Origin: Anaerolineae bacterium
GTDB lineage: Bacteria > Chloroflexota > Anaerolineae > Aggregatilineales > Phototrophicaceae
NCBI GenBank assembly: GCA_023382675.1
Contig: JAHDWN010000031.1
Coordinates: 1-64,000, forward strand
Reading direction: 5' to 3'
Length of the DNA: 64,000 nucleotides
Shown: positions 14,308-53,605 of the stretch, one piece after another
How positions within the stretch are numbered: the stretch's first letter is position 1
How the letters are laid out: each line of letters begins with the position of its first letter
Position numbers and translations under genes: made by a program
Notes under the pieces: model-generated
The model's database searches: none
Told to the model about the DNA's origin: nothing
The model's input: the letters and a program-made list of their open reading frames with translations, nothing else

Positions 14308-14350
14308 GCGTGAGCGGCTGTCGTGAGCATAGTGTGCATTGCCGATTGCC

Positions 14351-14380
14351 TTGCGATGCCTCAGCGTTTGGTTGTATACT
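14351..14380 (+). promoter_or_regulatory. Candidate sigma-70 type promoter for the DegU/DegS-like pair
   Basis: TTGCGA (14351-14356) and TATACT (14375-14380) are separated by 18 bases. Each hexamer matches the consensus at four or five positions. The predicted start of transcription is near 14387, leaving a leader of roughly 60 bases before the chosen ATG. Confidence 0.42.
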
Positions 14381-14448
14381 GCCGAAAAGCGTACCGACGA
14401 AAGGATGAGCGGTTGTCTGCGTCTGTTGCAGTGTCTCCGCGCGGAAGC

Positions 14449-15168
14449 ATGAACGAACGCCAAGAACGTCGCTACACTCACGAAATATCCGTACTCATAG
14501 TCGACGATCATCCCCTTTTTCGTGACGGTTTGCAGCGCGCATTGGAATATGAGGATGACATCCGGGTCATCGGACAATGTCAGAATGGCGAGGAGGCATT
14601 ACTCAGCGCACGTAATCGCCTGCCGGATGTTGTTCTGCTCGATATTAACCTGCCGACAATCAATGGCTTGCAGGTGGCGCGACTGCTCAAGACCGATAAC
14701 GCTCGCATTGGTGTTATCGTCCTGACGGCCTATCACGATACCCAACAGGTGCTCCATGCCATGCGTGCCGGGGCGTCGGCCTACTGTGCCAAGGACATCA
14801 CGCCGGATCATCTGGTCGAGATCATCCGCGATGTTGCCAATGGCTATTATGTTGTCGGCGAACGCCGCATGACCGAGGATGAAGTCCAACGTTGGATCAG
14901 CAGCAGCCTCGAAGCGATCACCGGCCCCTACGTTGTCGATCCAGAAGAACATTACGTGCCTTTAAGCCCACGCGAGACTGAAATTCTGCAATTCGTCACC
15001 AACGGCATGAGCAACAAAGAGATCGCGCGGCGGCTGCGCATCAGCCAGCAGACCGTCAAGAATCACATGACCTCGATCTTGAAGAAATTGAACGTCCAGG
15101 ATCGTACACAGGCGGCTGTGACTGCCTTAAGGCACGGTTGGGTGCGTTTGTTGGACAATGAAGACTGA
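14449..15168 (+). CDS. NarL/LuxR-type response regulator (DegU-like)
   Basis: 239 residues from the chosen ATG. Receiver domain: acidic pair in VLIVDDHP, phosphoacceptor Asp in VVLLDINLP at about 65, and the conserved Lys in YCAKDI at about 115. C-terminal LuxR helix-turn-helix: LSPRETEILQFVTNGMSNKE then RRLRISQQTVKNHMTSIL at about 175-215. The upstream in-frame extension to 14323 looks non-coding and overlaps the promoter, so it is excluded. It is followed after 36 bases by a DegS-like kinase, its likely partner, and then by the Tad genes, which makes this pair the best candidate regulator of the cluster. Confidence 0.9.
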   Translation: MNERQERRYTHEISVLIVDDHPLFRDGLQRALEYEDDIRVIGQCQNGEEALLSARNRLPDVVLLDINLPTINGLQVARLLKTDNARIGVIVLTAYHDTQQVLHAMRAGASAYCAKDITPDHLVEIIRDVANGYYVVGERRMTEDEVQRWISSSLEAITGPYVVDPEEHYVPLSPRETEILQFVTNGMSNKEIARRLRISQQTVKNHMTSILKKLNVQDRTQAAVTALRHGWVRLLDNED

Positions 15169-15204
15169 CATTCGTGAAGCAGTAGCTGAGATTGTGAGAC
15201 CGCG

Positions 15205-16284
15205 ATGGATAGAGAATTGCGCACGGAAACGTCATCACGCGATGAACTCGTGGAACTGCTTCAAAAAGAAATGAAGCGCATTCGCGACAAGCTGGCGGAA
15301 ATCAAAATTCAAATCGATCAGACACAGCTCGTTGTTGACCGAGAGCAGGTACGGAATACCGACATTGCGACGGAATTGCGCCGCGTTCAGGACAACATTG
15401 ATACCACGCCGCGCCAGGATATTCGCGCCATCTACGACGATGCGAGTGAGGCGCGCTTTCGATTGGCGACGATGCGTGGGCAGTTGGAAAAATTCCAGAA
15501 CAGCCGCGATCTTCTGGAACAAGAAGCGAAGCTCCTATCTCAGGTTCACAGTCGCATCCAGGGGGGTGTCGACACACTCGTCGGCGATACCGGTGGACTG
15601 AATCCGATACCCGCCGGCCAGAGCATGAGCATCGTCCGTATTGTTCAGGCTCAGGAGGAGGAACGTCAGCGGCTGGCGCGCCAGATGCACGACGGCCCTG
15701 CACAGTCTTTGACCAACTTTATTTTGCAGACGGAAATCTGCCAGCGCTGGTTTGATCGCAATCCGGCCCGTGCGGCGGAAGAATTGGGCAGCTTGAAGGA
15801 CATGGCAAGCGTCACGTTCCAGAAGGTGCGTGATTTTATCTTTGACCTGCGTCCGATGATGCTCGATGACCTGGGCGTGATCCCAACGACACGGCGCTAT
15901 GTTGACGCCTTCCGTGAGAAGAACGACATCGATGTGAAGCTCGACATCCTGGGGGAGGAGCGCAGGCTAGAGTCGCATCGAGAAGTCATGATATTCCGCG
16001 CGATTCAAGAACAGATGGTGAATGCGCGGGATTATGCGAACGCCACCGAGATCATGATCCGATTGGATCTTTCCGGCAGCCGGGTCAAGATCACGGTGGA
16101 AGATAACGGACGCGGCTTTGATGCTGAAGCAGTCTTGATGGGTGATGAGAACTATCATGACCCTCGCGCCCAGAGCCTGGTGACGCTCAAGCAGCGTTTC
16201 GAACTTGTAGGTGGTTCAGCGGCTGTCTTCAGTGGGGAAGAAGAAGGCACAAACGTGCGCCTGGAATTGCCCACGAAAGACTAG
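15205..16284 (+). CDS. Cytoplasmic DegS-like sensor histidine kinase
   Basis: 359 residues without a membrane helix. Residues 10-125 are strongly helical and probably coiled coil, as in DegS. The HisKA_3 motif ERQRLARQMHDGPAQSL places the phosphorylated His at about 162, followed by LRPMMLDDLGV. The ATPase domain has a divergent N box (QEQMVNARDYAN) and a standard VEDNGRGFD. The pairing with the NarL-type regulator upstream is clear from the 36-base spacing. Lack of membrane segments suggests an intracellular signal or a partner protein. It sits 172 bases upstream of cpaB. Confidence 0.9.
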   Translation: MDRELRTETSSRDELVELLQKEMKRIRDKLAEIKIQIDQTQLVVDREQVRNTDIATELRRVQDNIDTTPRQDIRAIYDDASEARFRLATMRGQLEKFQNSRDLLEQEAKLLSQVHSRIQGGVDTLVGDTGGLNPIPAGQSMSIVRIVQAQEEERQRLARQMHDGPAQSLTNFILQTEICQRWFDRNPARAAEELGSLKDMASVTFQKVRDFIFDLRPMMLDDLGVIPTTRRYVDAFREKNDIDVKLDILGEERRLESHREVMIFRAIQEQMVNARDYANATEIMIRLDLSGSRVKITVEDNGRGFDAEAVLMGDENYHDPRAQSLVTLKQRFELVGGSAAVFSGEEEGTNVRLELPTKD

Positions 16285-16401
16285 CATAGTGGTTAATTGG
16301 TTACGAGTCAGCAGTACATTCGGGCTGTTTCCGATTCCTTGAGGCTTTTCTAGACTACACTCACATATACTGAGTGAGTAGTACACCTGGAACTCCCAGA
16401 A

Positions 16402-16429
16402 GTGCAAGGTAAGTGTCACTACATTGCAC
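16402..16429. promoter_or_regulatory. Nested dyad upstream of cpaB, possible operator or leader hairpin
   Basis: GTGCAA at 16402-16407 is mirrored by TTGCAC at 16424-16429, and inside it AGTG (16412-16415) is mirrored by CACT (16417-16420) around almost the same centre. It lies 28-55 bases before the cpaB ATG. A TATACT hexamer about 35 bases upstream could be the -10, which would put the dyad in the 5' leader. Either a DNA operator or an RNA stem could explain it. Confidence 0.35.
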
Positions 16430-16456
16430 CTACTGCGTACCCGACGGAGGATCTTC

Positions 16457-17605
16457 ATGGGACGCCTTCGCACAATTTTGATCGTTTTGATTCTTTTGCT
16501 TGCAATCGTTGGGGCGGTTGTGTTTCTGCTGCCGAACATTACGGGCGGCGGACAGGTTCCAGCCACGCCTGCGGGTGATGGCACACCTGCGCCGGCGGTG
16601 AATATTGCGCAAGTGCCGACGCCGACACCGCTCCAGATGACGGAGATTGTGATCGCCGTGCAGGAACTCCCGCGCGGTATTCCCATTCCCCCGAATGCGG
16701 TTGCTCTTCGTCCATGGCCGCTTGAATCCGCGCCGATTAACGGTATCACCAACCTGGAAGATGTTGTCGGCAAGATTGCGCGCACGGATATTTTCCGCGA
16801 GGAACCAATCCTCTCTAACATGATCGTCAGTGATCTCACCAGCCTGGCACGAGTCGGCTCAGACGCTGCGGCGATCTTGCCGGATGGGTCACGCGCTATT
16901 GCCGTGCCTATGGATCGGCTGACGTCGGTCGCATATGGCATCCAGGATGGTGATCGCGTTGATGTGATCATGTCCATGTTGTTTGTCGATGTTGACGAAG
17001 AATTCCAGACCATTCTGCCCAATCGCGTCACATTGGTTTCGCAAGACCCCGAAACACAGCAGATCCAACTGACGACCGCTATTGAGGGGCGTCTTGACCC
17101 GCTCGGTTTCGGTAATGCTGTCGTTGGCCCAAGTGAGCGTCAGCGCCCGCGCCTTGTTACTCAGCGAACCATTCAGGACGCGCTGGTTGTGCACGTGGGC
17201 GAGTTCCCGCCGGATGGCCGCTTCATTGGCGTTCCTTCGACGCCAACGCCAGCGGCTGATGGTGGTGAAGGTGATGCCGCTCAGGGTGATGCAACTGCTG
17301 TGCCCACGCCGACAATGACGCGACCGAATATCGTTACCCTGGGCGTGACGCCGCAAGATGCTGTCGTGCTCACCTATGCGATTGAAGCGCGCCTGCCACT
17401 GACGTTCGTGCTGCGGTCTGCACGCGATACATCGCGTGTGGCGACGGATCCGGTGACGCTCGACTACATCATGACTGAATTCAATATTCAGTTGCCGGGC
17501 CGCCGTCCCTACAGCATTGAACCTGCGATTCGCAGTATTCGGCAGTTGATCGTTGAAGACCAATTGCAGCTCGGTACCGACACTGCGACGGGTGGCGGCG
17601 GCTAG
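16457..17605 (+). CDS. cpaB: Flp pilus assembly protein CpaB/RcpC
   Basis: 382 residues. Single N-terminal membrane anchor (about 5-26), a Thr/Pro-rich linker, then an SAF domain at about 55-120 (MTEIVIAVQELPRGIPI, FREEPILSNMI) and the RcpC region GSRAIAVPMDRLTSVAYGI, GDRVDVIMSM. A second Pro/Thr-rich segment near residue 270 interrupts the C-terminal half. CpaB proteins sit at the cell-envelope side of Tad systems; in diderms they work with the secretin, which a monoderm-like Chloroflexota would lack. The ATG at 16457 is chosen because GGAGG lies six bases upstream; the frame is open 11 codons further. Confidence 0.88.
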   Translation: MGRLRTILIVLILLLAIVGAVVFLLPNITGGGQVPATPAGDGTPAPAVNIAQVPTPTPLQMTEIVIAVQELPRGIPIPPNAVALRPWPLESAPINGITNLEDVVGKIARTDIFREEPILSNMIVSDLTSLARVGSDAAAILPDGSRAIAVPMDRLTSVAYGIQDGDRVDVIMSMLFVDVDEEFQTILPNRVTLVSQDPETQQIQLTTAIEGRLDPLGFGNAVVGPSERQRPRLVTQRTIQDALVVHVGEFPPDGRFIGVPSTPTPAADGGEGDAAQGDATAVPTPTMTRPNIVTLGVTPQDAVVLTYAIEARLPLTFVLRSARDTSRVATDPVTLDYIMTEFNIQLPGRRPYSIEPAIRSIRQLIVEDQLQLGTDTATGGGG

Positions 17606-17668
17606 GCCGCCATCCCTGGCACTTTGTCATCACGTTTGATCCAGACATGACGAGTTTGGGATAAGGGC

Positions 17669-18763
17669 ATGTTTAACAAGAAGAGCGCCGGGAACGAACC
17701 CCGAGATGTCATCAAAGTCGTGATCGTTGATGACATCCCGGATACCCGCGAAAACATCAAGAAACTGCTCGCTTTTGAGGAGCAGGAATTCCGCGTGGTG
17801 GGTACGGCCGGGACGGGCACCGAAGCTGTGCGTGTCGTTCAGGAAACCCAGCCTGATGTCGTCATTATGGACATCAACATGCCCGATATGGATGGTATCC
17901 AGGCTACGTCGCAAATCTCCAAGGTCGTGCCGACCGCTGCTGTGATCATCATGTCGGTGCAGCAGGATAGCGACTACTTCCGGAAGGCGATGCTTGCTGG
18001 CGCGCGTAACTACTTGATCAAACCAGTCGATCCGGACGAGTTGTACGGGACGATCCGCGCTGTTTACAAACAGCACGAGATCATCCGCCGCCAACAGGCT
18101 GCGATCCAGAGTGTGCCGACGGACATGCGGGTGGCGTCATCGCCAGAAACCGATGCCTACGCCCTGCGTGCCGGTCACATTGTCGTTGTCTACAGCCCTC
18201 AGGGTGGGGTAGGTTGCACGACGATAGCCACGAATATCGCCACGGGACTGATGAAAAAGGGCATTCGAGTTTTGCTCGTGGATGCCAATTTGCAGTTCGG
18301 CGATGTCGGCGTGTTCTTGAAGCTCCAATCGCAGTCGAATATCTACGATCTTGTCGATAAAATCGACGATCTGGACATCGAGTTCTTTGACAGCGTGGTT
18401 TCATCACACGAAAGTGGACTCAAGGTATTGCTTGGCCCGCCTCGGTTGGAGCTTGGGTTGGAAGTTGAGCAGACGCCGAACGCAGTTGGGCGCATTCTGG
18501 AGAAGATCGCGCAGAACTACGATTTTGTGGTCGTCGATACCGCCTGTCATCTCAACGAGGCGCAACTGGCACTCTTTGACATGGCAGCTAAAGTTGTGCT
18601 GGTCGCGACCCCAACGCTGGCGTCGATCAAGAACACGCGCTTCATGCTCGATCTATTCGACAAGCTCAACTATACGCCGGCCAAGATCACCTTTGTCCTC
18701 AATCGGGTTGAGGACGACCGCCAGCGTGGCCCACGGGCAACCATCGAAACGGAAACGTTTTAA
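17669..18763 (+). CDS. cpaE: CpaE-like pilus protein: receiver domain fused to MinD/ParA-type ATPase, cut short by an in-frame TAA
   Basis: 364 residues to the first stop. Receiver domain with VVIVDD, phosphoacceptor Asp at about 68 (VVIMDINMP) and Lys at about 118 (YLIKPV). After a helical linker comes a MinD-like domain with the variant P-loop SPQGGVGCTT (about 176-185), where Cys replaces the usual Lys, as often in TadZ/CpaE proteins; then LLVDANLQFGDVG and VVVDTACHLNEAQ. CpaE/TadZ localises the Tad machine. The TAA at 18761-18763 falls inside the ATPase domain; the same frame continues coherently for 81 codons to TAA at 19007, with typical family sequence. See the next entry. The protein as written probably lacks its last helices and strands. 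Confidence 0.85.
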   Translation: MFNKKSAGNEPRDVIKVVIVDDIPDTRENIKKLLAFEEQEFRVVGTAGTGTEAVRVVQETQPDVVIMDINMPDMDGIQATSQISKVVPTAAVIIMSVQQDSDYFRKAMLAGARNYLIKPVDPDELYGTIRAVYKQHEIIRRQQAAIQSVPTDMRVASSPETDAYALRAGHIVVVYSPQGGVGCTTIATNIATGLMKKGIRVLLVDANLQFGDVGVFLKLQSQSNIYDLVDKIDDLDIEFFDSVVSSHESGLKVLLGPPRLELGLEVEQTPNAVGRILEKIAQNYDFVVVDTACHLNEAQLALFDMAAKVVLVATPTLASIKNTRFMLDLFDKLNYTPAKITFVLNRVEDDRQRGPRATIETETF

Positions 18764-19009
18764 AAGATTCTCAAACGACCGGTTGATGCTCAGATCCCCT
18801 CTGACGAAAAGACGATCCTGACTGCCGTCAACAAAGGTGTGCCGGTGATCACTTACCAGCGCGACCGCTCACGTTCGCCGATCAAAGAACTGGTCGAACT
18901 TGCCGATAATCTTTTCACGCAGTTATCTGGCGATGAAGAGCTGATGGACGATGATCTGTCTGGGGATAAGAACAAGGCCAAGAAGCCCTTGCTGCGTCTG
19001 GGACGTTAA
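18764..19009 (+). pseudogene. cpaE: C-terminal remnant of cpaE downstream of the premature stop
   Basis: Same frame as cpaE, 81 codons then TAA. It reads KILKRPVDAQIPSDEKTIL then AVNKGVPVI and YQRDRSRSPIKELVELADN, which is the normal end of a MinD/CpaE-type ATPase. No in-frame ATG with a ribosome binding site precedes this block, so it is not obviously translated alone. The original codon at 18761 was probably CAA, GAA or AAA. A sequencing or assembly error, a genuine nonsense mutation or stop read-through are all possible. Confidence 0.75.
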
Positions 19010-19031
19010 CGAGAGAGAAGGAGTCTAGGCG

Positions 19032-20441
19032 ATGTCTTTGTTGAATCGCATTCAAAAAGGCGGCGGTTCCGGCGGTGGTCAGGGCGGGGATGAACCTCCT
19101 CAAAAGGGAGGTGACGAGGATCGCTTTTCGCGTAATCGCAATACGCCAGTCATGCAGCGAGGCCAACCCGGCACTGACAAGTCCTACAGCGATCTCAAGG
19201 GGCGTGTGCAGTCGCGCTTGATGAATGAGCTTGATCAATCTATCGATACGTCGCGCAAAGCAGAAATCCGCACACATATCGAAGAGTTGTTCAATTCGAT
19301 CCTTGCTGAAGAAAGCATGGTGCTGGCGCGCGCAGAGCGCCAACGCCTCTTTGAATCGATCGTCGCCGATATTCTGGGCTTCGGGCCGCTTGAGCCGCTG
19401 CTGGCGGATGAAACTATAACAGAAATCATGGTCAACGGCCCCAAGAACGTTTTCATAGAGCGTGCCGGTAACATCTTCCGAGCCAATGTTTCTTTTGAAG
19501 ACGAAGATCACGTCATGCGCATCCTGGATCGCATTGTTGCGCCGCTCGGTCGTCGTGTTGACGAAAGCTCGCCGCTGGTCGATGCGCGTTTGCCGGACGG
19601 GTCGCGCGTTAATGCCGTCATTCGCCCGATTTCGCTCGTCGGCCCCACGATCACCATTCGTAAATTCTTTAAGCGGCCACTTACGGTCGAGGACTTGATT
19701 AGCAAAGGCTCGGTGACGAAAGAAATCACCGATTTTTTGCGTTCGTGCATCATTGCGCGCCTGAACCTCATCGTGTCAGGTGGCACAGGCTCCGGTAAGA
19801 CGACGCTGTTGAACATCCTTTCTGGCTTCATTCCCGATGACGAACGAATCGTCACCATCGAGAACGCAGCAGAACTTCAATTGCGCCAGGAGCACGTCGT
19901 TACGCTGGAAAGCCGTCCGCCCAACATTGAAGGCAAGGGGCAGATCACCATTCAAGATCTGGTGGTGAACTCGCTGCGTATGCGCCCAGATCGCATCGTG
20001 GTTGGTGAGTGCCGTGGCGGTGAGGCGTTGGACATGCTCCAGGCGATGAACACCGGCCACGATGGTTCCTTGACCACGCTCCACTCCAACAGCCCGCGCG
20101 ATACGATTGCGCGTCTCGAAGTCATGTGTTTGATGGCGGGTATGGATTTGCCGGTGCGCGCTATTCGCGAGCAAATTGCCAGCGCTGTCGATTTGATCTG
20201 CCATCAGGAGCGTATGCGTGATGGTTCGCGTAAGGTTGTCAAAGTGACGGAAGTGCAGGGCATGGAAGGTGACATGATCACCATGTCCGACATCTTCGAA
20301 TTTGAACAGACCGGCGTTGAGGGCGGTAAGATTATCGGTCGTATTCGCCCAACAGGTATTCGCCCGCGCTTCATCGACCGCATCGAGGCATCCGGCATCT
20401 ACCTGCCGCCATCCGTATTTGGCATTGGCAAAGGGTACTAA
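19032..20441 (+). CDS. cpaF: Tad/Flp secretion ATPase CpaF (TadA)
   Basis: 469 residues. Gly/Gln-rich, probably disordered N-terminus (about 9-35), then the N-terminal domain of the type II/IV secretion ATPase family, Walker A GGTGSGKTT at about 250-258, ENAAELQL, and LRMRPDRIVVGECRGGEALD followed by LQAMNTGHDGSLTTLHSN. This hexameric ATPase powers assembly of Flp-type pili through TadB/TadC. AGGAG lies upstream of the ATG. It follows the cpaE end by 22 bases and is separated from tadB by a 116-base gap with a strong hairpin. Confidence 0.96.
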   Translation: MSLLNRIQKGGGSGGGQGGDEPPQKGGDEDRFSRNRNTPVMQRGQPGTDKSYSDLKGRVQSRLMNELDQSIDTSRKAEIRTHIEELFNSILAEESMVLARAERQRLFESIVADILGFGPLEPLLADETITEIMVNGPKNVFIERAGNIFRANVSFEDEDHVMRILDRIVAPLGRRVDESSPLVDARLPDGSRVNAVIRPISLVGPTITIRKFFKRPLTVEDLISKGSVTKEITDFLRSCIIARLNLIVSGGTGSGKTTLLNILSGFIPDDERIVTIENAAELQLRQEHVVTLESRPPNIEGKGQITIQDLVVNSLRMRPDRIVVGECRGGEALDMLQAMNTGHDGSLTTLHSNSPRDTIARLEVMCLMAGMDLPVRAIREQIASAVDLICHQERMRDGSRKVVKVTEVQGMEGDMITMSDIFEFEQTGVEGGKIIGRIRPTGIRPRFIDRIEASGIYLPPSVFGIGKGY

Positions 20442-20466
20442 GTTTCTAACTTTGCCGCGAAAACTT

Positions 20467-20508
20467 GCAGGACGAGACGCCATTCACTTGACTCGCGTTT
20501 CGTCCTGC
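20467..20508. other. Strong hairpin between cpaF and tadB
   Basis: A 14-base arm (20467-20480) is complementary to 20495-20508 with a single G-U pair, around a 14-base loop. No T tract follows on the plus strand, so it is not a standard terminator. It could protect or process the cpaF mRNA, or lower expression of the downstream tadB/tadC relative to the ATPase gene. Confidence 0.6.
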
Positions 20509-20557
20509 ACTTAGAATCAGAAGTAAGCACGACGAGATGTAGCGGTAGGAAAAAGCC

Positions 20558-21547
20558 GTGGAAAGTATGCAAATTCTGATCATCGCCGTTGCTGCGGTCG
20601 TCGCGATCGGTGTGCTCGTCTGGGGCATTCGCAGCGTGCGCGGCGAACGCGATGTCATCGAAGAACGATTGGAGAATATCGGCGCGGTTTTTGAAGCCGT
20701 CGTTGACGATGATATTCAACCGGAAGAAGAAGCGCACGGCAAAAAGTCCACTGCCTTGCAAGAGCAGCTCGACAATGTTCTGGCCGAGCGCAGCTTTGGC
20801 AAGAAATGGCGCAAAGAACTAGCGCGTGCAAATTTGAAGCTGACAGTCGCCGAATTCGCGGCGCTACACATCATCGCGATGGTAGGCTTCTTCATCGTCG
20901 GATATTTTGTCCTCTTCGGCCAGCAGCTCGTGATGGGGATCATCGCTGCGTTTGCTGGTTTCTTTGCGCCGCGCATCTACCTGTCGATGTCCGTCGGCAA
21001 GCGCCTGCGCCAGTTCGAAAGCCAACTTCCGGATACCATCAGCTTGTGGGTCAATGCGCTGCGATCTGGTTACAGCGTGCCCCAGGCGATGGAAGCGATT
21101 GCGCGTGATGCGCCTGAACCGACCGCGACCGAATTCAAACGTGTCGTTCAAGAGATGCAGATCGGCATTCCAATGTCCGCCGCGCTCGATCACATGCTTG
21201 AGCGTGTCGAGAGCGAAGACCTCGATCTGATCATCACCGCCGTCAATATTCAGCGTGAAGTCGGTGGTAATCTGGCGGAAATTCTGGATGTGATTGGCTA
21301 CACAGTCCGCGAGCGCATCAAGCTCAAAGGCGAAATCCGCGTTTTGACAGCGCAGGGACGCATAACCGGCTACTTGATCAGCTTCCTGCCGATTGCGTTG
21401 GCGTTGTTTTTGAACACGATTAACCCCGGCTACGTCGGTTTGCTCTTCTCGAATCGCTCCTGTGGTTGGCCGATGCTGGGTATTGGTTTGACTCTGATCG
21501 GGATTGGTGCAGCCCTGATCAATAAGATCGTCGACATCGACATCTAA
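20558..21547 (+). CDS. tadB: Tad inner-membrane protein TadB (type II secretion F family)
   Basis: 329 residues. N-terminal helix (about 5-24), a soluble helical region, two helices around 105-145, the T2SSF domain with LPDTISLWVNALRSGYSVPQ, EMQIGIPMSAAL and INREVGGNLAEIL-like segment QREVGGNLAEILDVIGYTVR, and two C-terminal helices. TadB forms the membrane platform with TadC and is driven by CpaF. The GTG at 20558 is chosen as start because AGGA lies seven bases upstream; an ATG three codons later is an alternative. Confidence 0.93.
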   Translation: MESMQILIIAVAAVVAIGVLVWGIRSVRGERDVIEERLENIGAVFEAVVDDDIQPEEEAHGKKSTALQEQLDNVLAERSFGKKWRKELARANLKLTVAEFAALHIIAMVGFFIVGYFVLFGQQLVMGIIAAFAGFFAPRIYLSMSVGKRLRQFESQLPDTISLWVNALRSGYSVPQAMEAIARDAPEPTATEFKRVVQEMQIGIPMSAALDHMLERVESEDLDLIITAVNIQREVGGNLAEILDVIGYTVRERIKLKGEIRVLTAQGRITGYLISFLPIALALFLNTINPGYVGLLFSNRSCGWPMLGIGLTLIGIGAALINKIVDIDI

Positions 21548-21568
21548 AAACGAGACGGAGTCTTGGGC

Positions 21569-22504
21569 ATGGATCCCATTCTATTGTTGATCATCGTAGT
21601 CGTCGGTGGTGCCATCGTTGCCGGATTGGTCTATGCGGGCATCAAGGACGACAGTGAATCCGACCCGCTTCAGGATCGGCTAGCAATGTTCGAAGACAGA
21701 GACATGCCTCAGTCGCTTGAGGAAATCGAATTGTCCCTGTCGTTCCAGGATCGCGTGCTCTTGCCTGTTCTGCGCGCGATTGCAGGGATGACGACTCGGC
21801 TCACTCCGCAGAAGCAGCTTGAAGACGCACGCCATAAGATCGAGTTGGCTGGGATGTCGTGGGAACCCTCGATGTTTTTTGCCGCCCGCATTGTTCTGAT
21901 GGTCGCGTTTATCTTCCTGGCCTTCATGGTCGCGTTTGTCTTCTCGACCTCGACCTCTGCCGGGACAGGCTTGCTCTACATGATTGGCGGCGCCGGGGTC
22001 GGCTATATCCTGCCGGAGCTTCTGATCCGCAGCAAAATCCGCCGCCGCCAGGATAACATCGTTCGGGCGCTCCCGGACGCGCTCGACCTGCTGGTGATTT
22101 GCGTCGAGGCCGGCCTCGGTTTCGACATGGCGATGGGCAAGGTCTACGAGAAATGGGATAACGATCTGGCTGTGGCCTTTGGCCGTATCCTGCGCGAGAT
22201 CCAGCTTGGTAAGCTGCGCCGTGATGCGCTCCGTGACATGGCGAGTCGTATGGATGTCCCTGATGTCACCGCGTTCACGGCTGCTGTTATCCAGGCCGAT
22301 CAACTCGGTGTGAGTATGGGGCGCATCTTGCGCGTGCAGTCCGATCAAATGCGTGTCAAGCGTCGCCAGCGTGCGCAAGAAAAGGCGCATCAGGCACCAG
22401 TAAAAATGATGATCCCGATGGTATTGCTGATCTTCCCGTCGATCTGGATCGTGCTCCTGGGGCCATCGGTCATCATTCTGATGAACACGAGCGTGCCCAT
22501 ATAG
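21569..22504 (+). CDS. tadC: Tad inner-membrane protein TadC (type II secretion F family)
   Basis: 311 residues. N-terminal helix, two central helices around 105-160, the T2SSF domain with LPDALDLLVICVEAGLGFD, FGRILREIQLG, and QADQLGVSMGRILRVQSDQMR followed by RRQRAQEKAHQAPVKM and a final helix. This is the partner of TadB. The start ATG at 21569 is preceded by GGAG at eight bases; an upstream TTG is also in frame but sits on the ribosome binding site. It follows tadB by 21 bases. Confidence 0.93.
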   Translation: MDPILLLIIVVVGGAIVAGLVYAGIKDDSESDPLQDRLAMFEDRDMPQSLEEIELSLSFQDRVLLPVLRAIAGMTTRLTPQKQLEDARHKIELAGMSWEPSMFFAARIVLMVAFIFLAFMVAFVFSTSTSAGTGLLYMIGGAGVGYILPELLIRSKIRRRQDNIVRALPDALDLLVICVEAGLGFDMAMGKVYEKWDNDLAVAFGRILREIQLGKLRRDALRDMASRMDVPDVTAFTAAVIQADQLGVSMGRILRVQSDQMRVKRRQRAQEKAHQAPVKMMIPMVLLIFPSIWIVLLGPSVIILMNTSVPI

Positions 22505-40934: not shown

Positions 40935-42113
40935 ATGCAAAAGCTAGTGCTCAAAATCATTCAACTCCTGGATGGAACGCCTACCGTTTATGGTAAGAGC
41001 CAGCGTGGGCAAAGTCTGGTAGAAATGGCGCTCATCACGCCGATTCTTATTATCATGCTCATGGGCATGGTTGAGATTGGCTGGTTTGCAAATAACTACC
41101 TGACTCTGCTTGATGTCACCCGCGCGGGTGCTCGTCATGGCGCAGTCCTTCAGGATCAATTCTCGCCTCTATTTTGGAATAACGACGCAAGTTATGTTCC
41201 TGCCCAATGGTTTGGATCAGCGCCGGACTCCAACAACTTTCAAGACCAGGGCTTGTTGCTTGGCGATACATCCATACTCGCCATGCCCTATACTGGTGAC
41301 GCTGCCTCTCAGCTAGTCCAGCGCAATGCGCGCGGCGGCCAACGTGGCTGCAACCTGCCAGTCGAATCGCAGTTTTATCGCGAAGTCGCCTGTGTGATGA
41401 TGGCTTCCATGGAGCCGCTGTCATTTGACGCGGAAAACAATACCGACGACATCATCATCTCTGGTTTCTCGATTGCGCGCATCACAGATACCCCTGGCAA
41501 TCCGGTAATCATCACGGACTCATTGCGTAGCGCTGTCAATCCCAGCGCAGACACCCTGAATGTCGTCGTTGGTCGCTATCCAACGAACGCCAATGAATGT
41601 GATGTGCAAAACACCGGCACCGGCGCTGTGCCAATTTTTCAAGTCCTGCCGCGTGAACGAGATCCCTTCGACATCAACGAAAATGGCGTGCGCGATCTGC
41701 GGCCTGATGCCGGTGGGCCGAGGGGAACCGGGGTGTTCAACGAGCTAGACGGTAGGGATATTGTGGAAAGTTCCGTCAGCCTGGCCGAGAAGCAGGTCGG
41801 TTTCTCTGTCTTTGGGCAGCACTTAATTCCCGGCACGGGCTGCATCGGATCAGTCTGGAAAGTTGCGGACATCGAACGCCTGATCAATCTGCCCAATTAC
41901 GAGTTGACGGATGAACTGCGGCGCTCACAGCTGCCGTTTCAGGGGCTTGTCCTGGTAGAAATCTACTGGGAACATGATATGCTGCTCAAATTCCCGCTCT
42001 TCAATCCGCTTGTCAACATTTTTTCGGGCGATCTCTCCCCAACCATTTCTGTCTGGGCCGTTTTCCCAATGCCAAGCGTAGAACCAAATGCTTCTCAAAT
42101 GGGCTTACCGTAA
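40935..42113 (+). CDS. TadE-like pilus assembly protein
   Basis: 392 residues. Cytoplasmic N-terminus with QRGQSLVEMALITPILIIML, the TadE consensus that combines a pseudopilin-like leader with the membrane helix (about 26-55), then FANNYLTLLDVTRAGARHG. The remaining 320 residues are exported and beta-rich, much larger than a classical TadE (about 150-200), with four cysteines. TadE-type pseudopilins may be cleaved by a prepilin peptidase and take part in Flp pilus assembly. First gene of the second Tad locus. Confidence 0.85.
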   Translation: MQKLVLKIIQLLDGTPTVYGKSQRGQSLVEMALITPILIIMLMGMVEIGWFANNYLTLLDVTRAGARHGAVLQDQFSPLFWNNDASYVPAQWFGSAPDSNNFQDQGLLLGDTSILAMPYTGDAASQLVQRNARGGQRGCNLPVESQFYREVACVMMASMEPLSFDAENNTDDIIISGFSIARITDTPGNPVIITDSLRSAVNPSADTLNVVVGRYPTNANECDVQNTGTGAVPIFQVLPRERDPFDINENGVRDLRPDAGGPRGTGVFNELDGRDIVESSVSLAEKQVGFSVFGQHLIPGTGCIGSVWKVADIERLINLPNYELTDELRRSQLPFQGLVLVEIYWEHDMLLKFPLFNPLVNIFSGDLSPTISVWAVFPMPSVEPNASQMGLP

Positions 42114-42151
42114 TCGTAGACACTGCGTGATGACGTGCTGAAGGACGAATC

Positions 42152-44827
42152 ATGAACTCAGGTGCATCAGAGCATTTCAAACGATACCTCCGGCGTTCGC
42201 AGTCCGGCCAATCGCTCGTCATTCTGGCGATAGGTTTCTTCGCCCTTGTCGGTTTCGTCGGTATTGTCACCGATGTCTCGCTGCTGTTCGTGCGCTACAG
42301 CACCCTTCGTCGTGCCGTCGACGCGGCGGCCGTCGCTGCCGCCGGGCAGATGCGGCGCGTTGATGCGGCGACGGCGGGCGAAGATCAGGCGCAGAGTTAT
42401 GCCAATATGGGCCTGGCGGCGCGCCAATTTATCGAATTCTACGGCTTGAACCCAAGCTCGGTCACAGTCGAAACGTGTCACGTACAGAATTCGCCATCAG
42501 GCACACCCGATCCTGAGCTGTGTACGGTCGATGAGCGAAAGCTGGTGCGGGTGACCGCTCAGATTGACTCGCCGACAACCTTCTTCAGCCTCTTCGGATT
42601 CCGGACAATCCGCCTGGAGGCGGAATCGATCTCAGAAACGGCGGTGCTCGACCTCGTCTTCATCATGGATGTGTCCGAGTCGATGCTCAACGAAACCACC
42701 TACGCCGATTGGGAGCGTGTGCCCCAGACCGACGGTACAGAGGCCAATTTCGGGCTTCGTTATCTTCCGCCTGTGCTGAGGCTGCCTGGTGGCTCGACCT
42801 ATGGCGATATGGCGCTTGCCTGGCAGAGACTTGTGGGGAGCAGCAACGAGGTGATTTTGCAGAACGTCATGGATGCTGCCGGTACGGGAAGCCTCCTGGC
42901 TGGCCTGGTGCCTGTAGGGCAGGAAAAGGTGCGAACATTTGGTTCGGGTACGGCCCCGCGCCGTGACTGTACCGTCCGCTTCTGGCCCGGCTCGGTCTTG
43001 AAGGCTCCGCAGACCAATCGCGCGCAGATCGATCAGTACATTGCGGACTTGGGTGGGATAACCAATTTCAGGAACTGGTTCGGTCTCTCTTCCTCAGCAG
43101 ACGTCTATACGCAGGCAGCATGGCATGGTCTGGTGCCGATGTACGATTATTATGGCTGCTGTAATGACCCGAATGGCGACTGGGACATGACAGATCTGAT
43201 CTGTCAACCGTTCCGTCGCGCGCGTGAAGCTAGCATCGACTTCATGGGCCGGCTCGATTTCATCCGGGGTGATCGTGTTGCCATTGTGACCTTTGACCGC
43301 AATGCCACGCTTATGGATCCCGATCCCAGTGATACAGATCCGACCGATTCAACACGCTCAGATACTCGTGATGCCATGATCTACAGCCAGGATATTGCTG
43401 AGCGTGTCATGCGCGAGCGCGTAGGGGTGCGTACAGAGGATAGATTCTACGCCGATTCCGCCAGCCCAGCACGCGATGGCCGGTGGGATCGACTGCGCGA
43501 TAACGGTGTTCCTAAAGACCTGGGATATTTTGCCACCACGCCGATCCAGAACATCATCGATCACCCGGTGCGCAATGCCTGCCCGTATGATTCGGCTATC
43601 CTGCCTTATCCCTACAGCTTGTACCGGAATGCAGCTGACACGGCTTATCGGTCGCCTTTTGCTATTCCTGCCCCGGTTACAGAGGCTCCAGGCGGTGTTC
43701 CAGTCTTGCTCGACGAAGTCGATACCCTGCCATCATGGTTCATGTCTGCTATGTCGCCGAGCGGTGGGGCTGGCTATTTGCGCACTCCGGTGGATACCAG
43801 CATATGGGAATTCACCGATCGCCTCGAACGTAGTTACGAATACCGCGGTTCGTGCGCCGGAACGAATATTGGCGAAGGGCTCGGCAAAGCCAGCGAGACC
43901 CTCGGGCGTCTCGGGCGGCGCGAAGGCGCTGTCTGGATCATGGTGTTGCTGAGCGATGGCGCTGCCGGCGCGAGCGCTCCGGCATGGCGTAACGGCACAT
44001 TGGCGATCCAACCGCAACCTTACAATCCCAGCGGCGTTGGTGCCGGTACTGCACCCTACTCTTCTGGGTTAGCTCAGCAGTACGGCTCGTTCGGTCTTTG
44101 CCCTTACGGCGCCGATATGACCGACACCGGCGAACTGCTCGAAGATCGTCGCTTCCCATATTGCAGCGATCTGAGACCAGAAGTACGTCACTACTGTGGC
44201 GATGATCTCGTCGGTGTTGAAACTGCCGAGCAGCGCGGCCCTAACCGTGTCGACCTCAGCGATGAAACATCGTGCGAGCAATTCTATGACGTGGACGATT
44301 ATGCACGTGACTGGGCAGATTATGTCTCTGTCCGAGGCATCAATCTCTATCAGCAGTCGGTGCCCGTGGGGGCTGATGTGATTGCCAACGACTCCGAGAC
44401 ACTGCTGCCCACAATTTTTACCATTGGCTTCGGCCTCGAGTTTGATCGTACCCCGGCTACGTCGAGCTGCCTTTCGGAAATCGGCAATAGTGTGTACGAT
44501 TGCAACATCGAGAGCTATCTGGGTGAAGAGTTGCTCCGCTATATTGCCGACGCGGGTGACAACTTCCGTATCGATAGTGACTACTGGCAACAAGAGTTAG
44601 GCTATCGCATTCCGAATCGTGTGGCGGATCTCGCGCCTGGCGTGGACCCGGATTGGGGGCCACGTGGCCCGTGCGAACAGCCTGTCGGCACGCGTGGCGT
44701 CTGGACTCCGCTTACACCTGGTGACGATTGCGGCAACTACTTCAGCGCGGCTTCTGGTAGCAGCGCCGACCTCAATGCGGTCTTCGCGGAAATCGCCGCG
44801 CGTATGTTTACTCGTCTTTCTGGCTAG
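42152..44827 (+). CDS. TadG-like protein with von Willebrand factor A domain
   Basis: 891 residues. N-terminus SQSGQSLVILAIGFFALVGF with one helix (about 20-48), then RYSTLRRAVDAAAVAAAGQM, the TadG pattern. A VWA domain starts near residue 165 with the MIDAS sequence IMDVSES (DxSxS) and resumes near 590 with WIMVLLSDG, interrupted by a very large insertion. About sixteen cysteines in the exported part suggest disulfides. VWA domains bind proteins through a metal ion; in Tad systems such TadG proteins are surface or adhesion components. AAGGA precedes the ATG at seven bases. Confidence 0.86.
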   Translation: MNSGASEHFKRYLRRSQSGQSLVILAIGFFALVGFVGIVTDVSLLFVRYSTLRRAVDAAAVAAAGQMRRVDAATAGEDQAQSYANMGLAARQFIEFYGLNPSSVTVETCHVQNSPSGTPDPELCTVDERKLVRVTAQIDSPTTFFSLFGFRTIRLEAESISETAVLDLVFIMDVSESMLNETTYADWERVPQTDGTEANFGLRYLPPVLRLPGGSTYGDMALAWQRLVGSSNEVILQNVMDAAGTGSLLAGLVPVGQEKVRTFGSGTAPRRDCTVRFWPGSVLKAPQTNRAQIDQYIADLGGITNFRNWFGLSSSADVYTQAAWHGLVPMYDYYGCCNDPNGDWDMTDLICQPFRRAREASIDFMGRLDFIRGDRVAIVTFDRNATLMDPDPSDTDPTDSTRSDTRDAMIYSQDIAERVMRERVGVRTEDRFYADSASPARDGRWDRLRDNGVPKDLGYFATTPIQNIIDHPVRNACPYDSAILPYPYSLYRNAADTAYRSPFAIPAPVTEAPGGVPVLLDEVDTLPSWFMSAMSPSGGAGYLRTPVDTSIWEFTDRLERSYEYRGSCAGTNIGEGLGKASETLGRLGRREGAVWIMVLLSDGAAGASAPAWRNGTLAIQPQPYNPSGVGAGTAPYSSGLAQQYGSFGLCPYGADMTDTGELLEDRRFPYCSDLRPEVRHYCGDDLVGVETAEQRGPNRVDLSDETSCEQFYDVDDYARDWADYVSVRGINLYQQSVPVGADVIANDSETLLPTIFTIGFGLEFDRTPATSSCLSEIGNSVYDCNIESYLGEELLRYIADAGDNFRIDSDYWQQELGYRIPNRVADLAPGVDPDWGPRGPCEQPVGTRGVWTPLTPGDDCGNYFSAASGSSADLNAVFAEIAARMFTRLSG

Positions 44828-44857
44828 TGGAATACGGCACCTTGTGGTTAAATTTCA

Positions 44858-44887
44858 CCCTCTTCCTAACCTATAGTAGGGAGAGGG
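44858..44887. other. Hairpin between the TadG-like and the third Tad gene
   Basis: An 11-base-pair stem with one G-U pair (44858-44868 with 44877-44887) and an eight-base loop. No T tract follows, so it may be an mRNA-stability or attenuation element, the second such hairpin inside the Tad genes of this window. Confidence 0.4.
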
Positions 44888-44983
44888 CGATCCGCAAGGA
44901 CAGGGGGAAAAGGCGACTCAAGCCTCACCAGGCTGGTTGCTTTCGGGGTGTTGGTTGCTGCGATGTGGAGTGTGGAGGGAGTT

Positions 44984-47407
44984 ATGGAAGAACACGAACA
45001 ACGGCAGGAATTGACTAGGCGGCGGCGCAATGGTCAGACTCTGGTCGAGTTTGCGCTCACGTTGCCAATTCTGTTGCTCTTACTCTTTGGCATTATTGAG
45101 TTTGGTCGCATCTTTCAGGCGTGGGTCACGCTGCAAAACTCGGCACGTGCTGCCGCGCGCTATGCGACGACCGGTCGCTACAATCCCGCCTATGTTATCA
45201 ATACCAATGGTGCGGACGATCCTGCTTCGGTCATCCCTTGTGTTCAGACTGCGACCGACGAACGTGGCGTTCGCGCGGTTTATATGCCGAACAGTACCTC
45301 GAATTATGCCAACCATGTCGAGGGCTTCGAACGAGGCCTGGAGATGCTCTATGCGACGTGGTATGGCGGCGACGATTGCAGCCCGGAGCAGGACACGGAT
45401 CAGAATAATCGTAAGGATCTATTGCGCATCCTGTCGATTATCGAGGAAGCACGTGTCGGTGCTGCCGGTCTTGCCATCGGCACCATACCCTATCTGGAGA
45501 CACCGCTCCCATCCGGTGACGCTTATCGTACTCTTACCGTCAACGACTGGCGGCAGGTGCCCTGGTTCCATGTCTGGGATCGACCGCTGCCAAACGGGAC
45601 GGTAGAGAACGCGCGCCTCGTCGGTTCTGATCAACCGACCTGGTTTGACGTGATGATCTGCAGCGCGCGCTACAAAATAGATGCCGCAAATCCAAGCAGG
45701 TTCAGTGCGCGCGTTTTTGAGGCGACTAACACGCTCCGTTTCCGCACCGTTCGCGACGCCGGGGATACACGTCCGGGCGAGACTGGCTCTGACATAGTGC
45801 CCGACGAGAATACTGTCGCGGCGTATGCGCCTGCATGTTTGCTCAATGAGCTTGGCAACGATCCCTACGAGACCAATAACGGGGCTCATCCCTGGCTAGA
45901 TGCTGGCGGCCCCGGTGATGTCGTGACGATTGTTATCACGTTCAACCATCCGTTGGTGACGCCTATCGGTCTTGCCAGCTACCTGCCGCTTCAGGCTCGG
46001 CGTACTGCGGTGAATGAAGCGTTCCGCAATTCCCGTGCGGCTAATCTGGGCCAGATCGTGCCGTCAGGTCCAGGTGAGGGCATTGAACTTCCACCAGAAG
46101 AGCCGGAGCCGTCGGAAGAACCGCCGCCGCCGGAAAACACACCGATTCCGACCAACACACCGATACCGAGTCTTCCAACCAACACGCCGATACCGCCGTT
46201 TACGTGTGACGGCTTTGGGCTGGCGTTCTTTGGCTGGCTGCCCGGTGGTAATGGCGCTTCCTTCAGCATCTACAATCCCAACGCGCAGCAGACGCAGCTC
46301 AAGCGTGCCACCATTCAGTGGCAGACAATTACCGGTTGGGCGAGTTTGCGCGTGAACGAAGTCCGGTTGGGCAATGGCCCGCTCTGGAATGCGTCGGATA
46401 GCAATGGTGCGCCAACCGACATCGGCCAGACGGCTGCGGGTGTTGGCGCAGACGGCCCATTCCTGACCAACGCCAATCGCTTCCTGCCGGGGAATGCTTC
46501 CCAGTATCTGGACGTGTATTTCGCCAGCGGGCCATCGCCGTTGCAGTCTCGCTATCGTGAAGACTTCTTCAACGGGACGACGATCTACATCGATCATCCC
46601 AATCAAGAGGCAGACTGCGTCTTGAACTTCAATGTTCCGGTGCCGCCGCCAACGACGCCGCCCACGAACCCGACGGCTACGCCGATACCGGATTGTCTCG
46701 CCGGATTGATCCACATCACGTTCGCGCGGTTCGATGATCGCGGCATGGTGGTCTGGTACATCCGCAATGGGCGTAACGTGCCGGCGACCATGGTGGGCTT
46801 CAGCCTGAACTGGGTGCAGCGAACCAGCAATTACACGCTCGATGCGGTTAACGCCTATTCAGCGCCTGGCACTGCTGGATCGCTCCGTGTCTGGACGGCA
46901 AGCAGCGGCACCCAGGACAGCACGCCGCCTACTGTTGGCCACAATGGTGGCGGGGGCGGCACGGAAGGTACCTGGAACAGTAACGTAACCATTAACGCGG
47001 GTCAGCAGATTGAGCTTTACGTCGATTTCGGCGGCACATTGGGTCGCCTGGATGAATCGTCGATGAACGCTCAGCCGTCTGACTATACCGGATCGACTTT
47101 CGAGTTCAATCAGCCGGATTGCGGTCCTGGGTCAGGCCCAGGCGGTGCGACTGAGATTGCGCCGGTGATCATCCCTGAGCCGACGCCATTCGTGCCGCCG
47201 CCGCCACCACCACCACCGCCGCCGCCGCCGCCGACGTCGCCGCCACCACCGCCGCCACCACCGACGTCGCCGCCACCGCCGCCGCCACCGACGTCGCCGC
47301 CACCGCCGCCACCACCGCCGCCGCCACCACCGCCGCCGCCACCGCCGCCTGGAGGAGGCCCTGGAGGTGGAGGAGGATCCGACAGTCGGCCACGGCAAGG
47401 TCTATAA
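44984..47407 (+). CDS. TadE-like surface protein with duplicated beta domain and polyproline tail
   Basis: 807 residues. N-terminal RRRRNGQTLVEFALTLPILL plus helix is the TadE leader, followed by FQAWVTLQNSARAAARYATT. A Thr/Pro-rich spacer (around residue 375-405) leads to two related beta-rich domains (about 407-540 and 570-700); both carry a LDVYFASG or ELYVDFGG type strand and end shortly before a DC motif. The last 75 residues are nearly all proline, in runs broken by Thr-Ser, with a final run of about 18, then glycine. The ATG at 44984 follows GGAGG; an in-frame earlier ATG has no ribosome binding site. Likely an exposed, rigid cell-wall-spanning component of the pilus system. Confidence 0.8.
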   Translation: MEEHEQRQELTRRRRNGQTLVEFALTLPILLLLLFGIIEFGRIFQAWVTLQNSARAAARYATTGRYNPAYVINTNGADDPASVIPCVQTATDERGVRAVYMPNSTSNYANHVEGFERGLEMLYATWYGGDDCSPEQDTDQNNRKDLLRILSIIEEARVGAAGLAIGTIPYLETPLPSGDAYRTLTVNDWRQVPWFHVWDRPLPNGTVENARLVGSDQPTWFDVMICSARYKIDAANPSRFSARVFEATNTLRFRTVRDAGDTRPGETGSDIVPDENTVAAYAPACLLNELGNDPYETNNGAHPWLDAGGPGDVVTIVITFNHPLVTPIGLASYLPLQARRTAVNEAFRNSRAANLGQIVPSGPGEGIELPPEEPEPSEEPPPPENTPIPTNTPIPSLPTNTPIPPFTCDGFGLAFFGWLPGGNGASFSIYNPNAQQTQLKRATIQWQTITGWASLRVNEVRLGNGPLWNASDSNGAPTDIGQTAAGVGADGPFLTNANRFLPGNASQYLDVYFASGPSPLQSRYREDFFNGTTIYIDHPNQEADCVLNFNVPVPPPTTPPTNPTATPIPDCLAGLIHITFARFDDRGMVVWYIRNGRNVPATMVGFSLNWVQRTSNYTLDAVNAYSAPGTAGSLRVWTASSGTQDSTPPTVGHNGGGGGTEGTWNSNVTINAGQQIELYVDFGGTLGRLDESSMNAQPSDYTGSTFEFNQPDCGPGSGPGGATEIAPVIIPEPTPFVPPPPPPPPPPPPPTSPPPPPPPPTSPPPPPPPTSPPPPPPPPPPPPPPPPPPGGGPGGGGGSDSRPRQGL
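47194..47350 (+). repeat. CCG/CCA low-complexity tract encoding polyproline
   Basis: About 157 bases made almost only of proline codons (CCG and CCA), broken by three ACGTCG (Thr-Ser) units spaced 24-30 bases apart. The codon mixture suggests slippage followed by point mutation. Prone to length variation and to assembly error. Confidence 0.85.
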
Positions 47408-52226: not shown

Positions 52227-52763
52227 CTACCGCCTAAAAAGCTGTTTTTCCAGTAGCCAGCATGGTTCGTGGACAGATTGCACCCGCCCTTTGTGATCTG
52301 TGTAACTCCAATCGCCGTCGCTTTCATCGAAAATCTGATAGCCCTTACGGTTATAAAGCTGGAACGCGCGCGTGTTGTCCTTGGCAACAGCAATAGTTGT
52401 CCACTCGTAACCCAGTGCCGTGACTATGCCTTCCGCTTCGTCGATGAGTCGCCCGCCGATGCCCATACTCCGAAACATGTCCATGACGCGGAGCGCATAC
52501 AGGTAGGCCCGTTTGCCTTTGCTCGCCATCCGCTGTTCCCGGCTGCGAAGCTGGACGAAAATTTGCCCGATAGGGATGTTTTGCACTGCCGCGAGAATCA
52601 TCAATCGACGCCCCAGCAACTGCTCGCGATACGTGCGGCGGAAAATCGCGCGGAACTGAGTATATTGCCCATGCCATTCCAGCAGTGGCAGATCCTCCTC
52701 GCGTGCGAGGCGCAGGGTGACGGGCAGCGTCAGCGTGAAGGTGTGTTCATTGAATGTCGTCAT
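52227..52763 (-). CDS. GNAT family N-acetyltransferase
   Basis: 178 residues. LRLAREEDLPLLEW at the start, LRVMDMFRSMGIGGRLIDEA as the acetyl-CoA binding motif A, and VAKDNTRAFQLYNRKGYQIF as motif B. Substrate unknown; RimI-like N-alpha or small-molecule acetylation are both possible. It overlaps the 3' end of the nucleotidyltransferase gene by 17 bases, so it is translationally coupled to it. Confidence 0.88.
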   Translation of the reverse strand: MTTFNEHTFTLTLPVTLRLAREEDLPLLEWHGQYTQFRAIFRRTYREQLLGRRLMILAAVQNIPIGQIFVQLRSREQRMASKGKRAYLYALRVMDMFRSMGIGGRLIDEAEGIVTALGYEWTTIAVAKDNTRAFQLYNRKGYQIFDESDGDWSYTDHKGRVQSVHEPCWLLEKQLFRR

Positions 52764-53605
52764 CGCATATCCCGCTTTTCAGCCACGTCTGGAGCAGCGC
52801 CCACTCGCTCTCATCGTCTCTGATCTCGCCGTCGAGACGCGCCGCGCGCAGCCGGTCAAGGATTTCGCGGAAGCACGGGCCGGGCTTCAGGCCAAGCTCT
52901 ATCAACCGGTGGCCGTCGATTGTCGGCTTGACGTGCCGCCAGGTGGACAAAAAGCCAGTGATCATGATGCGTTCGGGCGATTCGGGTTCGGCGCGAATGA
53001 AGTGAGCCAACAGCGCATCGACTGCGTAGGTCTCCAATGTGCGCGTGATCAGGCTTGGCGAGGCAAGGCTATCGATCAAGCGGCGGAGTTCGTCGCTGAG
53101 GCGCGCTGTCTGGGGAACGCTCGTCTGCATCGCGCGCGGTATCCGCAGCCGCTCGCACATCGAGTCGGCTTCCTCCGGTGTCAGCGAGATTGCCAGCAGA
53201 TGCCAGTAGATGTCCGGAATGACGACGATGCAGCCTTCGGGCACGTCAATTGCGCGCGCGCGGCGAAACAGGTCGGCGGTATTTTCGTCAAAACGCAGCG
53301 CAGGATGGATGGCTTTCAGAGCACCGCGCTTCGCCAGACTCAGAAATCCTTCTTCAGGCAACGGCTCGTTCAGCAGCAAATTCAACTCGTTGCGGACGCG
53401 TTCGCCGGTGATGCGCCCCAACATTGCCAGCGCCGGAGGGATTAATGCTTCGGTGCGCGGCTCGATCTCGAATTTCAGCCGCTGCTCGAAGCGCACCGCG
53501 CGCAAGATGCGGGTCGGGTCATCGATGAAGCTCAGGCTGTGCAAGACGCGCAGATGCATGGCTTCCAGGTCGCGCAGGCCGCCGTAGTAATCCAGGATGC
53601 GGCCA
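52747..53605 (-). pseudogene. C-terminal part of the CCA-type nucleotidyltransferase, after a frameshift
   Basis: This frame carries YYGGLRDLEAMHLRVLHSLS, FIDDPTRILRAVRFEQRL and the helical neck and body domains, which normally follow the head domain of class II CCA-adding enzymes and poly(A) polymerases. An in-frame ATG at 53559 exists inside the motif but has no reason to be a start. Adding one base to the AAA at 53604-53606 (TTT on the coding strand) joins this frame to the upstream gene as PGFGRILDYYGGLRD, the expected family sequence. The joined product would be about 870 residues. Confidence 0.8.

Follow-up and report, generated by a model that had tools for sequence, protein, structure and literature searches.

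A private in-frame stop codon in the Tad-pilus gene cpaE of an Anaerolineae bacterium: a likely recent truncation, with consensus error as the main rival

The CpaE/TadZ proteins of Tad (type IVc) pili, such as CpaE of Caulobacter, consist of a receiver domain followed by a ParA/MinD-type ATPase domain, and their genes are clustered with cpaB, cpaF, tadB and tadC. In a Caulobacter study, CpaE dimers are placed around the motor CpaF and a C-terminal amphipathic helix is thought to take the protein to the inner membrane (PMC13170226). The cpaE gene described here encodes the same two domains in a comparable cluster, whereas its open frame covers just the first 364 of the 446 residues expected. 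In this it resembles pseudogenes with a single lesion and private nonsense alleles in genes for bacterial surface structures, in which, too, a lone in-frame stop is followed by conserved sequence, the adjacent genes are intact and relatives lack the lesion; little sets cpaE apart from these except private changes clustered within 11 codons around the stop.

The window, that is, the whole stretch of 64,000 nucleotides that was analysed, is part of contig C31 (79,360 bases) in a 6.4 Mb genome in 110 contigs, estimated to be 96% complete. It is collinear end to end with contig C3 of the nearest relative, genome G002. Two groups of Tad genes are present in the window, at 14323-22504 (cpaB-cpaE-cpaF-tadB-tadC behind a two-component pair) and at 40935-47407 (TadE/Tad-like genes, 41-47 kb), whilst Flp-pilin-like matches, below cut-off, were located on other contigs (C2 and C22). 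The features of the first group are as follows, with identities given relative to G002.

14323..15168, + strand: LuxR-type response regulator upstream of the Tad genes, intact
15205..16284, + strand: HisKA_3 sensor kinase upstream of the Tad genes, intact
16424..17605, + strand: cpaB/rcpC, intact (TIGR03177, 6e-28; 89% over 1-386 of 394)
17669..18763, + strand: cpaE (tadZ-like), shortened frame, with the receiver (17-129) and most of the ParA/MinD-type ATPase domain (from 170); 92% over 1-363
18737..18769, + strand: codons 357-367, clustered window-private changes (357, 360, 364, stop 365 and 367)
18761..18763, + strand: in-frame TAA, private among the sequences compared; sense in 90/90 distinct relatives
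18764..19009, + strand: frame-0 continuation of cpaE (81 codons and TAA), last core strand and C-terminal helices as placed by alignment and the secondary structure of the G002 homologue
19032..20441, + strand: cpaF/tadA motor ATPase, intact (T2SSE, 4.1e-65; TIGR03819, 2.6e-105, under the curated cut-off; 94.5%)
20558..21547, + strand: tadB, intact (T2SSF, 3.4e-18; 93.6%)
21563..22504, + strand: tadC, intact (T2SSF, 2.9e-14; 93.9%)

Residues 17-129 of the cpaE product matched the receiver family (Pfam Response_reg, PF00072, 6.2e-30) and residues 170-328 a ParA/MinD-type ATPase family (AAA_31, PF13614, 3.6e-16), both over cut-off. Because of these two domains, together with cpaB upstream and cpaF, tadB and tadC downstream, the gene product is, judged from its sequence and setting, CpaE/TadZ. 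The fold predicted for the G002 homologue also matches 3ea0 and MinD, and TadE domains occur further along the window at 41007 and 45032. The open frame lacks the end of the ATPase fold and the C-terminal helix, which are encoded in frame past the stop.

The open reading frame beginning at ATG 17669 meets an in-frame TAA at 18761-18763 (codon 365, following ...TIETETF). Past this stop, frame 0 reopens at AAG 18764 (KILKRPVDAQIPSDEKTILTAVNKGVPVI...), continues for 81 sense codons and ends at TAA 19007-19009, exactly as described in an initial annotation of this DNA, which had reported an in-frame TAA splitting cpaE within the Tad cluster ahead of 81 codons of family sequence. When the read-through frame was compared with the intact G002 gene by TBLASTN, query residues 1-446 aligned at 88.6% identity with no frame change across the site, and hence the tail beyond the stop is real CpaE sequence. 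A +1 frameshift at TTT TAA was considered and rejected, because translation in the shifted frame departs from the family sequence immediately, and it is frame 0 that encodes the homologous tail. The same annotation had regarded the neighbouring genes as intact, and this was borne out for cpaF, tadB and tadC, and also for cpaB, which match G002 over their full or nearly full length at 89-94% identity with no internal stops.

Relatives were drawn from loci L001-L120, of which 107, besides the window's own two, gave a match starting by residue 20 and extending to residue 390; the others were dropped. These 107 loci represent 90 distinct proteins, G002 included, and the codon aligned to the stop encodes E in 52, Q in 15, S in 12, A in 10 and G in one, with neither a stop nor a gap, so that every intact orthologue compared has a sense codon at this site. 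G002 itself encodes an intact CpaE of 447 residues with 92% identity over the shortened part, and the same gene is found in JADLAY010000003.1 of isolate SJ143 (the L041 gene is unchanged in L003). The genus is represented by 15 genomes in the collection, and 12 of the 14 others contain an unbroken CpaE match in open frames of 435-482 codons, compared with 370 codons here; of the remaining two, the match in G006 is split over two contigs and G005 has a receiver match only. No CpaE-length match was found in seven of 61 genomes (G005, G015, G025, G030, G032, G037 and G060), all of them drafts of 86-96% completeness in which absence may partly reflect missing data. Since CpaE-length matches are missing from some relatives, loss of the gene can probably be tolerated.

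The extent of the truncation was mapped onto an AlphaFold model of the G002 CpaE (mean pLDDT 88.5, pTM 0.62, 47 sequences). Helix 362-369 of the model is interrupted by the stop, and the segment lost comprises a strand at 375-378 and helices at 381-390, 394-397 and 406-421. Foldseek searches with this model returned the ParA-family ATPase 3ea0 as the best match, followed by MinD, and, when aligned by sequence, 3ea0 and Aquifex MinD (4v03) both remain matched through most of the lost segment. PDB entry 3fkq, which we take to be TadZ of Eubacterium rectale, was the sixth match (E 7.4e-13, TM 0.39), with an rmsd of 12.5 over both domains that denotes a poor superposition. With the ATPase fold deprived of its final core strand and the protein of its C-terminal helix, the modelled structure suggests that the shortened CpaE is probably non-functional.

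An ordinary truncation, in which cpaE was cut short by a recent mutation confined to this strain or population, is the most likely of all the readings considered and one that the sequence comparisons lead us to favour with some reserve, whilst an error in the assembly consensus is its main rival. Following such a mutation, translation would end at codon 365 and the 364-residue product would keep the receiver and the P-loop end of the ATPase domain; missing from it would be a portion of one helix, the final core strand, the helices that come next and the C-terminal helix. Because that strand and those helices would be gone, the short CpaE may misfold, or fail to dimerise and reach the membrane, and assembly of the Tad pilus would then be impaired or mislocalised. 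Among the titles listed by a literature search, none concerned a truncated cpaE. If real, the lesion would be a further instance of a Chloroflexota lineage having recently lost a surface pilus, and would hint at the half of CpaE that is dispensable to the cell; if it is an error, it shows once more why reads are needed when a gene loss is called from a single assembly. Either way, knowledge of Tad pili is unchanged.

The age of the lesion was approached through constraint on the tail. Relative to G002, dN/dS was 0.03 over codons 1-364 and 0.10 over codons 366-446, with synonymous sites near saturation, and therefore amino acid changes were compared instead. Polarised with G013 as the outgroup, the changes private to the window and to G002 numbered 4 and 3 in the tail (11 undecided) and 14 and 8 in the body (9 undecided); a second alignment gave 4 and 4, and 12 and 8, respectively. 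The corresponding counts were 11 and 7 for cpaB, 10 and 4 for cpaF, 5 and 8 for tadB and 4 and 6 for tadC, and the sums over all of these genes, including the cpaE body and tail, were 46 window-private and 37 G002-private changes. The tail/body ratio of nonsynonymous divergence between the window and G002 was 3.41, the highest of 20 pairs, followed by 3.33 for L008-L009. Against five outgroups the ratios ranged from 1.93 to 2.62 for the window and from 1.96 to 2.55 for G002, and as the two genomes are alike in this respect, the CpaE tail seems to evolve fast in general. Residues absent from the other 89 relatives (shared ones left out) were found at 355, 360, 367, 414 and 426 in the window and at 338 and 425 in G002, counts that lean slightly against the window.

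Near-equal private counts in the tail, yet the highest tail/body ratio, would fit a very recent loss or none. Because the tail lacks clear decay and the neighbouring Tad genes are intact, the lesion is, on these comparisons, either very recent or not real, and a long-dead pilus is unlikely. The tail appears to show little or no relaxation, so that it offers no independent sign of lost function, which counts against truncation. The constrained appearance of the tail and of the neighbouring Tad genes counts in favour of the stop being a consensus error, whether from thin coverage, damage to the library DNA or the blending of several strains, with the living cells encoding a full-length CpaE; we hold this to be possible rather than probable.

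The sequence immediately around the stop bears on the choice between these two explanations. Across codons 357-367, G002 and G013 are identical in amino acids and the window differs from them at 357, 360, 364, 365 (the stop) and 367. The window residues at 360 and 367 were found in none of the 90 relatives, and residue 364, F in the window, is I in 18/18 close relatives (I 75, V 11, F 3 and A 1 across all 90). It had been proposed that a single substitution explains the stop, which holds for the stop codon alone and falls short of the surrounding codons, since 357, 360, 364 and 367 are window-private as well. In a clustering test made post hoc, when the cluster had already been seen, a density of five private changes within 11 codons was attained in 127 of 20,000 uniform draws and 221 of 20,000 variability-weighted draws, and the best 8-codon window in 678 and 807 of 20,000 draws, respectively. 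The cluster is thereby suggestive of a real local event, as opposed to one miscalled base, because neighbouring private residues are not produced by a lone error; a local stretch of bad consensus would explain it equally well.

At the stop, the unit GAAACG occurs twice in frame (18746-18757), alongside a pair of 8-base palindromes that overlap each other (starting at 18753 and 18758); all of these are absent from the G002 and G013 codons. Template switching is an idea as to the source of the cluster; a search of 232 kb of the genome for a template of the private stretch returned no other match of more than 11 bases. It is also conceivable, though very improbable, that the cluster is a new junction rather than damage, at which termination at codon 365, followed directly by a weak restart, divides CpaE into a soluble portion with receiver and ATPase and a separate, membrane-seeking C-terminal portion. 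Were this so, a split CpaE would amount to dosage control over pilus placement.

The window contains a second lesion. A gene with DHH, DHHA1, CBS and PolyA_pol (poly-A-polymerase head) domains (52747-55361, - strand), encoding 870 residues in G002, is split here by a one-base frameshift near 53601-53613, giving ORFs at 53532-55361 and 52747-53559. This lesion, a one-base length change in a C/G run about 35 kb from the cpaE stop and on the same contig, would also be expected from a weaker consensus, and thus counts against truncation and in favour of consensus error. So does the collinear 64 kb of G002, in which no comparable break was noticed among the ORFs checked, short and shadow ORFs not having been checked individually. 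An argument from the essentiality of the second gene was set aside, as a second, unbroken PolyA_pol match is present at C28:36782-37132.

A wider scan of 186 G002 ORFs against 232 kb of this genome led to two accepted breaks, cpaE and the frameshift near 53600, and a reverse scan of 191 ORFs of this genome against G002 led to none in G002, counts that are lower bounds for either genome. The two scans flagged 27 and 25 ORFs (stop, split or low coverage), of which seven of the 52 were inspected as alignments (cpaE and five more on the G002 side, one on the other) and 45 were set aside by position, as most of the flagged stops lie either close to the beginning of the ORF, ahead of where translation probably starts, or within its final residues. 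A few ORFs, for example g2C3|96466 (five stops), C15a|9623 and C28|90621, do not fully follow this positional rule. Among the ORFs inspected, a 509-residue one of G002 on C15 was put down to an upstream leader mistaken for coding sequence, and one of 650 residues in this genome, apparently broken in G002, was judged from composition alone to be an antisense shadow ORF. With just two breaks accepted, as a lower bound, the consensus does not appear grossly bad, which speaks against consensus error; moreover, random base errors rarely give stops, and one nonsense error would imply many more that are unseen. A share of about 1% broken genes is ordinary for bacteria, and the rate found here fits natural pseudogenes as well as rare errors.

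Four meanings had been offered for the stop in the initial annotation, of which loss of the CpaE C-terminus and a base error are still live, whilst read-through has gained little support and phase-like switching none. In the case of read-through, or of a restart just past the stop, cpaE would still work and yield either short and long forms or two halves. The tail still has the sequence typical of the family and private changes are not clearly in excess there, a weak start-like ATT is located at 18767, separated from the stop by one codon, and a GTG at 18845 is preceded by AAAGG. ATT is a very poor start codon, however, with no good ribosome site in the 20 bases before it, and the AAAGG-GTG pair is inside codons of a conserved protein segment and may be due to chance. 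There is a precedent in Aliivibrio salmonicida, in which fliF and flaG have premature stops and the strain is nonetheless motile, the authors considering read-through (PMC2627896). Against this, the arrangement occurs in 0 of 90 distinct relatives, the family keeping a sense codon where the window has a private stop, and the site has no tandem repeat, so that of the evidence for read-through only the undecayed tail stands; a working gene is quite unlikely. TAA is also an ordinary terminator in this window, where it ends 14 of the 52 ORFs with a G002 partner (the 14 including cpaE and the 52 including both halves of the other broken gene). Reassignment of TAA is consequently not supported, in agreement with the earlier view that it was unlikely.

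Pili are often switched in other bacteria, and this general background, together with the overlapping palindromes and the two-copy GAAACG unit at the site, could be taken to favour reversible mutation at codon 365 as a phase-like switch of the pilus. The GAAACG unit is in frame and upstream of the stop, however, and the palindromes are short and belong to a stretch without another copy of more than 11 bases in the 232 kb. A search of 18500-19050 for tandem repeats found none, the stop is seen in 0/90 distinct relatives, and phase-like switching is accordingly rated extremely improbable.

The genome itself was searched with the shortened CpaE, and 86 matches were retrieved, of which the only close one was the gene itself (E 9e-238), followed by a match at E 1.9e-22. 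By their aligned ranges, the remaining matches were receiver-only or ATPase-only, with the exception of one distant protein spanning both (C6). This protein, at C6:84603-85766 (L157 6604-7767, - strand), combines a receiver with a BcsQ-like ATPase and is flanked by a Sir2 gene and a histidine kinase. It was rejected as a substitute CpaE, spanning the receiver and part of the ATPase domain with no recognised Tad genes beside it. Frames resembling it in relatives were 385-426 codons in length, with the receiver and ATPase matched at 27-30% identity.

The receiver of the CpaE group examined here keeps the classical acidic and lysine positions, D21, D22, D68 and K118 being retained in 90/90 relatives, whereas the TadZ receiver is called atypical in the Caulobacter study (PMC13170226). 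The P-loop lysine positions of the ATPase domain are mostly occupied by other residues, with Q in 61 and K in 20 of the 90 at residue 178, and K in 14/90 at residue 183. Phosphorylation might perhaps outweigh ATP in this group of CpaE proteins.
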